From Roseovarius pelagicus (GTDB lineage Bacteria; Pseudomonadota; Alphaproteobacteria; Rhodobacterales; Rhodobacteraceae): 64,000 nt of DNA. The translations under genes were made by a program, and so were the position numbers. Of this stretch, positions 34,933 to 38,505 are shown piece after piece; position 1 is the stretch's first letter; the number at the start of each line of letters is the position of its first letter. The stretch is taken from the NCBI RefSeq assembly GCF_025639885.1, contig NZ_CP106738.1, forward strand, positions 124,001-188,000, written 5' to 3'. The notes beneath the pieces are model-generated. The model did no database searches. It had not been told where the DNA came from and saw only the letters and a program-made list of their open reading frames with translations.

Positions 34933-35964
34933 TCAGGCGGATTTGCGCAGCGGATCTTCCAGTGCGATCTCGTCAAAAGTGGCTGCGGCCTTTTCGAAAT
35001 TGTGAACCAGCGGATCGGTCAGCTTGGTCTGGGCGGCGAAATAACCGCCGACGCGGCAAATGTGAGCCGCAAAATCGGGATGCACGCCAGCATCGTCGTA
35101 TTTTCGCACTTTCTCCTTGGTCAGCCAGCCGCGGCTTTTGGCCTCTTTTACAATCAGCTTGAACCGTTGGATGCAGTGAAATGTCATGTAGATGGACAGA
35201 TATTCAAGATACGCCTCAAGCGTGTGTCCACAGTCAGGGTCAAAGCAGTCGATAACCACATCGACCATTTTTTCCGCGGACAGCGGCCATGCTTCATCCC
35301 CGATCAGCCACGCAACATCTTCGGCTCCGTGGCGCAGGCCTGAATATTCGAAGTCAAACCAACGCAGCTTGCCATCCTCTGCGATGGCGGCGTTGCCCGA
35401 ACGGCAATCCCATTTGACAAATTGCACGCCTGCCTGTGCGACCGCCTCGCAAGCCGCGTCGCGGTTGAAATAGCGCGAGACGTTCCCATAGGGCTCCATC
35501 GCGTTGACGGCATAGACGAAGTTTTCGATCCACTCGTGATTGGTCCCTAGATGCGGCATCATTTCATGGAGTGTTGTTTTGCGGGCCGCGTTCTGGATTC
35601 GGAAGATGGCGCTTATAGCCTCGGCAGACAGGTCCAGCTGTCGCGCCTCGTCATGACGTACAATGTCGCGGTTCAGACGCTTGCGCCCGACATCGGACTG
35701 AAACATCACCTCGTCGACAACCCCAAGGCATTCCGGGATGTCATCGCAATGTGGTTGAAGGCTTTGCAGTACATAGGCCTCTAGGTGGGTGCGGCGGAAG
35801 TTCGGGCGCAGCGTGGCAATGATCGCGCGATCACCCATGTACAGCCGAAAGCTGGAGCGGCCCTCGCCGCCCGGGGCCGTAGCGCGATCAACTTTAGCGC
35901 CAAAATGCGCCTCGGCTGCCTCGACGATCCGGGCGAGGCGTTTCTTATTCTCACTGCTGCTCAT
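34933..35964 (-). CDS. Aminoglycoside phosphotransferase-fold kinase of unknown substrate
   Basis: 343 residues. The catalytic loop reads QFVKWDCRSGNAAI (Asp and Asn retained, the usual HxD changed to KWD) and the metal-binding loop is RWFDFEYSGLRHGAEDVAWL. The N-terminal lobe (RSSFRLYMGDRAIIATLRPN) resembles choline/aminoglycoside kinases. Small-molecule kinase of uncertain substrate. It is alone, divergent from the repeat protein gene. Confidence 0.75.
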   Translation of the reverse strand: MSSSENKKRLARIVEAAEAHFGAKVDRATAPGGEGRSSFRLYMGDRAIIATLRPNFRRTHLEAYVLQSLQPHCDDIPECLGVVDEVMFQSDVGRKRLNRDIVRHDEARQLDLSAEAISAIFRIQNAARKTTLHEMMPHLGTNHEWIENFVYAVNAMEPYGNVSRYFNRDAACEAVAQAGVQFVKWDCRSGNAAIAEDGKLRWFDFEYSGLRHGAEDVAWLIGDEAWPLSAEKMVDVVIDCFDPDCGHTLEAYLEYLSIYMTFHCIQRFKLIVKEAKSRGWLTKEKVRKYDDAGVHPDFAAHICRVGGYFAAQTKLTDPLVHNFEKAAATFDEIALEDPLRKSA

Positions 35965-36342
35965 GTCGGGTCCCCCGCTTCCTGCCAGTTTGGTTCAGGC
36001 GCGCAGTATCTCTCGGCGCTATGGCAGAACTAAGGCAACCACATGGTTCGGGTTGGGCGAATCAGCAAGCAAATCTGGTCGACCAACGATCTGGACAAGA
36101 TTTGATTGACGCAGTTTTTGACAACGATGCGCCATATTTCGACCACACTGTTTCCAGTCCGATATTTTAAAATCCTTTAATATTAAGGGATTAATAATAA
36201 AGCTTGCCCGGAATTTGACGCATTTATAGCGTTTTTTGATCGTATTTTCATCACCCGTGAGGGCGCGTGGGGTTCTGGTGTTGGGGCCGTATCTGGAACG
36301 ACCGCGTTGCGTGTGCTCACGGCTATTACAAGGAAGACGGCA
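35965..36342. other. 378-base AT-rich intergenic region before the repeat protein
   Basis: Holds the divergent start regions of the APH-fold kinase and the repeat protein. GC drops sharply at about 36155-36240, where a near-palindrome lies at 36171-36192 and TTTGACG/TATTTT-type promoter-like words follow. No gene seen. Confidence 0.5.
36171..36192. promoter_or_regulatory. Near-perfect palindrome, candidate operator for the repeat protein gene
   Basis: AATCC-T-TTAATATTAA-G-GGATT: a 22-base inverted repeat with one mismatched pair, 150 bases upstream of the start codon, inside the most AT-rich stretch of the area. It contains several TTAA words, but none at the 7-base spacing of a CtrA site. 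The regulator is unknown. Confidence 0.35.
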
Positions 36343-38505
36343 ATGGGGAAGCACTCTGAATTTGGCAGGCATTGGGGCGGCACGCGCGGTAGCGGCGGTG
36401 CCAAGGCAAGCGCGACGAAATCATATCACAACGGTGGTGTAGAAGGTGGGTCGTTTGCGTCTTGGTATGACGATCATCTCAGCGGTTTCTTTGATGGCTC
36501 CGGCTCTGGCGGTACGAAGGGTTCCGGCTCTGGCGGCACCAAGGGCTCCGGTTCCGGCGGTACGAAGGGCTCCGGCTCTGGCGGTACGAAGGGTTCCGGC
36601 TCTGGCGGCACCAAGGGCTCCGGTTCCGGCGGTACGAAGGGTTCCGGCTCTGGCGGCACGAAGGGCTCCGGTTCGGGTGGTACGAAAGGCTCCGGCTCTG
36701 GCGGCACGAAGGGTTCCGGCTCCGGCGGCACGAAGGGTTCCGGCTCCGGCGGCACGAAAGGTTCCGGCTCTGGCGGTACGAAAGGTTCCGGCTCTGGCGG
36801 CACCAAGGGCTCCGGCTCGGGTGGCACGAAGGGCTCCGGCTCCGGCGGTACGAAGGGTGGGGAGACCTGCGATCATGATGGTGGCAAGCAGACGCTGACG
36901 TTTACGCTGGGTGACAAGCCCGCTGTGAATATCGAGGTCAGCGAAACACCCACTGGCACACTGTTCTTTAACTTGGTTCCGACCACGTTCTTGTCCGAAC
37001 AGGCCGATATCGATGGGATTTTCCTGAATCTGGCGGATGACAGCACGATTGACGAGCTGATGTTCTTTCCGGATGAGAACACCCGTGAGGTCACTGATAT
37101 TCAGGCGCGCGCCAACGATGTGACTGGTTTGTCGAACGGTGCGTCCGTGACCCAGACCTTTGACGTGGCGCTACAATTCGGCCTTGTGCCGGACAGCACT
37201 GAAGGTGAAATAAATACTGTCAACTTCACACTCTGGTCCAGCACCGGTGATCTGACGTTCGACGATATCGACCTGAACAGCATGTCACTGATCGTCAATT
37301 CGGATACGGACGAACCGCTGATCCTTGAGGTCACGTCGAGTGATGTGGACGACCCGGACGATGGCCACGAGGATTGTGACCATGACGGCTCTGGCGGCAC
37401 GAAGGGCTCCGGCTCTGGCGGCACCAAGGGTTCCGGCTCGGGCGGTACGAAGGGCTCCGGCTCTGGCGGCACCAAGGGTTCCGGCTCTGGCGGTACGAAG
37501 GGTTCCGGCTCTGGCGGCACGAAGGGCTCCGGCTCTGGCGGTACGAAGGGGTCCGGCTCTGGTGGCACCAAGGGTTCCGGCTCTGGCGGCACGAAGGGCT
37601 CCGGCTCTGGCGGCACCAAGGGTTCCGGCTCGGGCGGTACGAAGGGCTCCGGCTCTGGCGGCACCAAGGGTTCCGGCTCTGGCGGTACGAAGGGTTCCGG
37701 CTCTGGCGGCACCAAGGGTTCCGGCTCTGGCGGCACGAAGGGCTCCGGCTCTGGTGGCACCAAGGGTTCCGGCTCTGGCGGCACGAAGGGCTCCGGCTCT
37801 GGCGGCACCAAGGGTTCCGGCTCGGGCGGTACGAAGGGCTCCGGCTCTGGCGGCACCAAGGGTTCCGGCTCTGGCGGTACGAAGGGTTCCGGCTCTGGCG
37901 GCACGAAGGGCTCCGGCTCTGGCGGTACGAAGGGGTCCGGCTCTGGTGGCACCAAGGGTTCCGGCTCTGGCGGCACGAAGGGCTCCGGCTCTGGCGGCAC
38001 CAAGGGTTCCGGCTCGGGCGGTACGAAGGGCTCCGGCTCTGGCGGCACCAAGGGTTCCGGCTCTGGCGGTACGAAGGGTTCCGGCTCTGGCGGCACGAAG
38101 GGCTCCGGCTCTGGCGGTACGAAGGGGTCCGGTTCTGGCGGTACGAAGGGGTCCGGTTCTGGCGGTACGAAGGGTTCCGGCTCGGGCGGTACGAAAGGTT
38201 CCGGCTCGGGCGGCACGAAGGGTTCCGGCTCGGGTGGCACGAAGGGTTCCGGCTCTGGCGGCACGAAGGGTTCCGGCTCTGGCGGTACGAAGGGCTCCGG
38301 TTCCGGCGGTACGAAGGGGTCCGGTTCTGGTGGTACCAAGGGTTCCGGCTCTGGCGGCACGAAGGGTTCCCATTATGCCTCGTCTGGCTTCCAATGGTCG
38401 ACGAGCGATATCATGGCCCTTATGACCAAGAATCCGGATGATCTGGAAGATCCGGACAAGGACGAAGTGGAAGATGACGAAGAGGAAGACCACGTCTGGT
38501 GGTGA
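36343..38505 (+). CDS. GSGSGGTK-repeat protein with a central beta-rich domain
   Basis: 720 residues from ATG at 36343, which has AGGAAG 6 bases upstream; the longer frame adds 12 codons. Layout: Gly/His-rich N-terminus 1-51; 15 perfect GSGSGGTK repeats 52-171; a 177-residue acidic, probably beta-sandwich domain 172-348; a partial repeat and 40 perfect repeats 349-674; an acidic tail 675-720 ending DHVWW. The only two cysteines (both in CDHDG motifs) flank the central domain. The arrays carry 56 lysines and no acidic residue, while the central domain and tail are acidic. No classical signal peptide, so export would need a leaderless route. Not recognised; perhaps an extracellular matrix, adhesin or condensate protein. 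Confidence 0.85.
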   Translation: MGKHSEFGRHWGGTRGSGGAKASATKSYHNGGVEGGSFASWYDDHLSGFFDGSGSGGTKGSGSGGTKGSGSGGTKGSGSGGTKGSGSGGTKGSGSGGTKGSGSGGTKGSGSGGTKGSGSGGTKGSGSGGTKGSGSGGTKGSGSGGTKGSGSGGTKGSGSGGTKGSGSGGTKGGETCDHDGGKQTLTFTLGDKPAVNIEVSETPTGTLFFNLVPTTFLSEQADIDGIFLNLADDSTIDELMFFPDENTREVTDIQARANDVTGLSNGASVTQTFDVALQFGLVPDSTEGEINTVNFTLWSSTGDLTFDDIDLNSMSLIVNSDTDEPLILEVTSSDVDDPDDGHEDCDHDGSGGTKGSGSGGTKGSGSGGTKGSGSGGTKGSGSGGTKGSGSGGTKGSGSGGTKGSGSGGTKGSGSGGTKGSGSGGTKGSGSGGTKGSGSGGTKGSGSGGTKGSGSGGTKGSGSGGTKGSGSGGTKGSGSGGTKGSGSGGTKGSGSGGTKGSGSGGTKGSGSGGTKGSGSGGTKGSGSGGTKGSGSGGTKGSGSGGTKGSGSGGTKGSGSGGTKGSGSGGTKGSGSGGTKGSGSGGTKGSGSGGTKGSGSGGTKGSGSGGTKGSGSGGTKGSGSGGTKGSGSGGTKGSGSGGTKGSGSGGTKGSGSGGTKGSGSGGTKGSGSGGTKGSHYASSGFQWSTSDIMALMTKNPDDLEDPDKDEVEDDEEEDHVWW
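36496..36855 (+). repeat. First 24-bp tandem array, 15 copies
   Basis: 360 bases, exactly 15 units of 24 bases, each encoding GSGSGGTK. Units differ from each other only at synonymous third positions (GGC/GGT, TCC with TCT/TCG/TCC, ACC/ACG, AAG/AAA). Confidence 0.95.
37387..38364 (+). repeat. Second tandem array: one partial plus 40 full 24-bp units, with a 192-bp higher-order repeat
   Basis: An 18-base partial unit (GSGGTK) at 37387-37404 is followed by 960 bases, exactly 40 units of GSGSGGTK. Synonymous differences let units be typed. Types recur with a period of eight units (192 bases): blocks starting at 37405, 37597, 37789 and 37981. The blocks at 37405-37596 and 37789-37980 are identical; the second block differs at a few third positions; the fourth diverges after about six units. 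Confidence 0.93.

Follow-up and report, generated by a model that had tools for sequence, protein, structure and literature searches.

The question raised by this locus is what a leaderless protein built on a Gly-Ser-Thr-Lys repeat may do in Roseovarius pelagicus, and whether it acts alone. The array gene (36343..38505 on the forward strand, stop codon included) lies in the window, that is, the whole stretch of 64,000 nucleotides analysed, and encodes 720 aa starting with MGKHSEFG; the sequence AAGGAAG is found a few bases 5' of the ATG, and no hydrophobic leader is visible by eye. The protein contains 55 perfect GSGSGGTK units and one partial SGGTK, set in uninterrupted runs of 15 and 40 units: array 1 (36496..36855, forward strand, residues 52-171; Tandem Repeats Finder score 496) and array 2 (37387..38364, forward strand, the partial unit plus 40 units; score 1508). 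The arrays carry 56 Lys and zero acidic residues, 39 acidic residues lie in the central 177 aa and 15 in the 46-aa tail, and the only Cys are at positions 176 and 345, all of which agrees with the description given in an earlier note made from the sequence of the window.

The same note had pointed out that the units differ in their DNA and not in their peptide, and this was confirmed: the 55 DNA units fall into 21 distinct sequences, and wherever a unit departs from the consensus the changed base is in third position and silent, in 99 cases out of 99. Counting the 9 extra codon alleles as independent mutations, and taking every base change as equally likely to arrive at a silent chance of 0.306, the probability that all would be silent is 0.306^9 ~ 2e-5; it falls to 5e-11 if 20 changes are assumed for the 21 units. 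Array 2 is traversed by a higher-order repeat of 64 aa (192 bp), present in nearly four copies (37387-38364), with 95.6% identity at that lag vs 88.7% at 8 aa, which we take as a sign of recent block duplication; many of its units are therefore recent copies and not independent. Long antisense ORFs with VPPEPEPF-type repeats extend across the arrays (36499-38370 on the reverse strand, for example 37101-38360); apparently they are by-products of the codon pattern, and they could be mis-annotated as genes.

The head of the protein bears the strongly conserved motif ASATKSYHNGGVEGGSFASWYDDHLSGFFD (36406..36495, forward strand). A scan with the exact pattern [SA]Y[HY]NGGVE, by which divergent heads are missed, gave 59 named loci in what their titles describe as Rhodobacteraceae-type organisms; the sampled sets of loci and genomes overlap (L060/G028, L061/G334 and others). 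The alignment of 32 heads yielded the family motif SYHNGGVEG..F..WYD..L with an invariant WY, 31 of the 32 coming from loci picked by the scan pattern, so that only the remaining positions are independent. Loci reached via the centre also show NGGVQG, NGGVTG, NGGIEG and NGGVDG heads, and some family proteins have a second copy of the head motif after the centre. The arrays of the family are of the GSGSGGTK, GSGGTK, GTKGSGTKG or GKGSDGT-like type, and arrays of like kind occur in many genera, judging from record titles.

The central acidic domain (36877..37356, forward strand), for which the earlier note had suggested a structural model, is confidently predicted by AlphaFold2 as a beta sandwich of ten strands (pLDDT 92.3, pTM 0.89), and structure comparison gave no clear match to it in the PDB. 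Relatives of this centre were found in 7 of 84 genomes of the genus, in 29 of 295 genomes of the family and in 8 proteins of a large database. As a key feature, which the cysteine-flanked domain had been thought to be, it did not hold: the window-type centre was detected in 26/59 named loci (truncated loci counted as lacking), other centres occur, and Cys is not conserved, the complete L018 ORF having zero. Cys counts and gap sizes are approximate, since the ORFs were delimited by stop codons at both ends. In the array proteins of L070, L081, L089, L091 and L102 the place of the window-type centre is taken by another domain (VLDLS.AGA...GSVEF...GH[FY]). The window-type centre also opens leaderless array-free proteins (L012, L019, L021 and P0005-P0008), with a DVMxLM-type or similar tail in L019 and L021, and in P0007 it stands at the start of a protein that also has cadherin domains.

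The tail (38365..38502, forward strand) consists of the motif STSDIMALM, an acidic stretch and the hydrophobic end DHVWW, and is a candidate C-terminal export signal. Tails could be compared in 44 of the 59 loci, as 12 ran into the end of a contig or stretch and L080, L116 and L118 were left out; a loose form of a D[IV]MALM-like motif is found in 30/44, a hydrophobic end in 40/44 and a net acidic character in 44/44. The family is thus defined by its head, its Gly-Ser/Thr composition and its tail, and not by the cysteine-flanked centre. That no family would be recognised was borne out: Pfam gave no match for the whole array protein, the head or the centre, NCBIfam gave none for the whole protein, and the separate profile searches proposed for centre and tail brought only two weak Pfam matches to the tail, below their cut-offs. 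No PDB sequence was matched by the centre or partner profiles, and defence-system models gave no match.

Repeat number in close relatives, which the earlier note had proposed to compare, does vary. The genome G028, listed as the same species, has 49 units (18 + 31) instead of 55, with 28 distinct DNA units and one peptide; its head and centre are identical to those of the window in protein, the DNA of the centre differing at 2 bases, and its tail differs by a single residue. Within the species, then, the repeat number drifts and the peptide does not, whereas beyond the species the peptide drifts: 33 relatives have runs of at least 10 units, and in these the perfect units number 658 of 964, with only 2 relatives free of imperfect units, L060 (Pseudohalocynthiibacter aestuariivivens RR4-35, NZ_CP049037.1) missing full invariance by one edge unit only. 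The changes are mostly of Lys to Q, N, R, G, H, S or T, of Thr to Ser and of Ser to Thr. It is the last residue of the unit, Lys, that changes most readily; Gly and Ser/Thr persist, also in a comparison that covers 53 of the 59 loci and uses a mask that favours Gly/Ser/Thr. Strict invariance is special to this species and not general in the family; the claim that selection keeps the peptide exact is supported for R. pelagicus and does not extend to its relatives. In the same way, the description of the arrays as polycationic is right for the bare sequence, but in the relatives Lys is the changeable residue.

The earlier note overlooked the gene next door. The partner gene (34933..35964, reverse strand) encodes a predicted APH-fold phosphotransferase of 343 aa with the motif KWDCRSGN...WFDFE, and diverges from the array gene across 378 bp (35965..36342) in which we found no promoter-like match and one terminator-like match (36217-36233, forward strand), within chance expectation for the stretch scanned. 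A relative of the partner adjoins the array ORF, within about 0.4 kb, in 55/59 named loci, of which 49 are divergent, 5 have it downstream on the same strand and 1 is tail to tail; as for the four loci without an adjacent partner, two genomes carry it elsewhere and one MAG had no match. Sulfitobacter mediterraneus DSM 12244 (L064) and Roseovarius lutimaris DSM 28463 (L077) are culturable relatives that have the module. In the genus, all 7 genomes with the head motif have the partner (at least 53% identity), and more distant relatives of it were found in 4 of the 77 genomes without the motif. In the family sample the partner is present in 19/19 genomes with the motif vs 16/276 others, one of the 19 (G147) having only a fragment of 110 residues with a stop. 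The linkage of the two genes is firm, and the array protein is not an orphan. We did not find the pair described in the literature searched, where neither of the strings GSGSGGTK and GSGGTK occurs.

The partner is assigned with high confidence to the APH/choline-kinase fold on the basis of its predicted structure. For the partner and five array-linked relatives Pfam returned no family up to E 1, and none of these six reached the gathering score of PF01636 (23.2 bits); this score was reached by P0092 (27.2), P0095 (28.1), L163 (23.3), L168 (43.6) and L169 (36.4 bits), and 3 other relatives in the same scan had no APH match. NCBIfam gave two weak matches below cut-off for the partner. The homologue search scored the best 7998 candidates and refers to the best 120 of 386 matches. 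Residues D185, N190 and D203 (numbered without the start Met), which we take to be the catalytic Asp, the catalytic Asn and the metal-binding Asp, are invariant in the 23 aligned kinase members, drawn from the 55 array-linked kinases with L083 left out, and a Trp replaces the usual His before the Asp. The kinase motif pattern matched 21 of 23 array rows and 13 of 20 partner-only rows. Another protein, YtaA of Bacillus subtilis, is known as the spore coat protein CotI. Compared with the partner, YtaA (PDB 2q83) shows about 9% identity.

Such kinases also occur where the motif protein is missing. In 14 of 20 partner loci without it (L153, L155, L157, L159, L160, L161, L162, L163, L164, L166, L167, L168, L169 and L170) a protein with RTX motifs and/or Gly-Ser/Thr tracts is encoded nearby, within 1 kb in 13 of them and at 3.8 kb in L155; in L162 and L166 it has tracts and lacks RTX motifs. 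No such protein was found in the stretch read of L151, L152, L154, L156, L158 and L165. Under a stricter tract test, devised after seeing the 20 loci, 11/20 pass, against zero ORFs in 587 kb of DNA flanking the 59 loci. Pfam scans of five of the proteins beside related kinases gave HemolysinCabind and Hint_2 domains in four and SdrD_B-like repeats in that of L166. The array protein is like the RTX-Hint proteins in its kinase neighbour, although no Pfam match to RTX nonapeptide repeats (PF00353) or Hint was found in its own 720 aa. The L167 protein (L167:8298-13850), with a YFNGGV head-like motif, a long GTGGTK run and RTX, cadherin-like and Hint_2 domains, seems to bridge the RTX proteins and the array family. 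A tree of 43 kinases places the array-linked members in one group, within which L151 and L152 also fall, and leaves the remaining 18 outside it; several branches are long and the deeper order is unsure. The simplest history suggested by these sequences derives the array family from ancestors linked to RTX proteins, with the same reservation about the deep order. L151 and L152 thus carry array-type kinases with no array gene in the stretch read and with a Wzz-like neighbour by eye. Common to both sets of partners is Gly next to Ser/Thr, whereas Lys comes and goes, which points to the Ser/Thr hydroxyls as the place where the enzyme would act.

We therefore propose, tentatively and with the balance slightly against the scheme as a whole, a two-gene module in which a dedicated kinase would modify a leaderless, exported structural array protein. 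The array protein would be extracellular, and its Gly-Ser/Thr tracts would be the substrate of the adjacent APH-fold kinase. This enzyme would act in the cytoplasm, where it might bind the conserved head motif and would phosphorylate, or prime for glycosylation, many of the Ser/Thr of GSGSGGTK (three per unit); phosphorylation would turn the Lys-rich polycation into a polyampholyte in which positive Lys alternates with negative phosphate. A housekeeping type I system would then export the protein by way of its acidic, hydrophobic-ended tail, and a matrix or adhesive polymer would form at the surface. The parts of this proposal are not equally strong. That the kinase acts on its partner protein is probable; for Ser/Thr phosphorylation as its chemistry we see an even chance. 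Type I export is somewhat likely, given the RTX partners, the lack of any visible leader, the tail and the habits of the Roseobacter group, and a role as matrix or adhesin stands about evenly poised. The suggestion of a leaderless, possibly exported scaffold made by the earlier note thus survives as a plausible reading. The weaker invariance in relatives leaves the probability of the mechanism unchanged, since what it requires is Ser/Thr and not a flawless repeat.

The window genome has a single PrtD match over cut-off, 1.5 Mb from the array gene, and type I transporters are near universal in the genus, such that co-occurrence is uninformative; G028 differs from the window genome in that its PrtD-type match (G028:C1:3036374-3037744) is incomplete and under the cut-off. 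The HopA1-type lyase PF17914 had 0 matches in the window genome, and hence no dehydration step is expected.

The partner could instead be a sugar or small-molecule kinase supplying a building block for O-glycosylation or exopolysaccharide, with the array protein itself untouched, which we consider unlikely. Sugar kinases do match its predicted fold, and several neighbours would suit them: upstream, clusters of the sugar-transferase kind (PF02397 in the one member scanned) and the ParA/AAA-like kind (CbiA, below cut-off, in the one member scanned) in 13/59 loci, a cluster of Wzz type (PF02706 in the one member scanned) and a flippase-like one (by eye only) in 11/59, and, near the kinase in 36/59 loci, an acyltransferase cluster with one member scanned as PF13480 (L077:7287-8519). 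The upstream exopolysaccharide-type genes are in line with a surface role of the array protein as well as with this explanation. However, most of the stretches retrieved did not show them, in contrast to the nearly constant kinase; among the shared neighbours, a minority of whose clusters had a profile scan, the sugar transferase is the one glycosyltransferase cluster to stand out; and the acyltransferase relative of the window genome is at C2:2209395, about 2 Mb away. As a candidate third core gene the acyltransferase was rejected, since it is unlinked in the window genome and gave no match in 1 of 14 module genomes searched. A location inside the cell, where the array protein would be a flexible condensate scaffold of the cytoplasm or inner periphery tuned by the kinase, would suit its low-complexity composition, the absence of a signal peptide visible by eye and the fact that no secretion or transporter gene was recognised by eye among neighbour clusters of at least 5 loci. 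RTX/Hint_2 and SdrD_B-like repeat proteins, the kinds found in the five Pfam scans beside related kinases, are extracellular, and the window-type centre starts the cadherin-domain protein P0007, so that we judge an intracellular scaffold rather improbable.

Comparably improbable is a plain repeat adhesin, exported by type I secretion, whose neighbour would be a merely co-inherited regulatory gene. It has a precedent in BapA of Paracoccus denitrificans, a simple-repeat protein with 891 Asp-Ala repeats, predicted to be a type I substrate and required for biofilm; its repeats are different, though, its secretion genes adjoin it, and no kinase is mentioned in the available part of that account (PMC5588039). 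Moreover, the linkage described here outlasts changes of gene arrangement and of partner type, which is unexpected for a bystander. That repeat number and homogeneity are a functionless product of recombination or assembly is very improbable: the block structure of array 2 and the lack of invariance in most relatives would fit, but the divergence is silent only, the same-species genome combines other unit numbers with one peptide, and like arrays appear under the titles of many genera.

The proposed module, with its modified, exported array protein, may be set beside several known systems. Diatom silaffins are modified proteins with Ser-Lys rich repeats, and offer an analogy from eukaryotes. 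In B. subtilis, CotH is a Ser/Thr kinase that phosphorylates the serine-repeat regions of CotB and CotG, with which it is clustered and which form an outer layer (PMC7821199); the differences are that no CotH family appeared in the Pfam scans of the partner and five relatives, that CotB and CotG belong to a spore coat and not to a Gram-negative surface, and that their repeat sequence is other. The class V lanthipeptide kinases CaoK and LxmK (PMC9486802; PDB 9dk1-9dk3) are analogues, but the window genome gave no match to PF17914 and the substrate proposed here is a large repeat protein. In Ruegeria pomeroyi the top three exoproteins by abundance are RTX-like proteins that have no signal peptide (PMC2953401).

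With this finding, a low-complexity protein that had stood as an orphan becomes part of an enzyme-substrate pair that is open to testing and present in many marine genera. We hold as doubtful the broadest form of the proposal, in which roseobacters would make widespread Ser/Thr-phosphorylated, type I secreted repeat polymers, each with a dedicated APH-fold protein kinase, as a Gram-negative counterpart of CotG-CotH; if true, it would reveal bacterial protein kinases of a new class, directed at secreted proteins, and phosphate on the Gly-Ser/Thr tracts together with Lys would give a tunable, ion-binding extracellular polyampholyte, possibly organising mineral or EPS. If the kinase does modify the arrays, these bacteria would have a dedicated pre-export modification route for secreted proteins, built on a fold known chiefly from kinases of antibiotics and metabolites, and biofilm and materials work would gain a polyampholyte that is genetically encoded as a single peptide.
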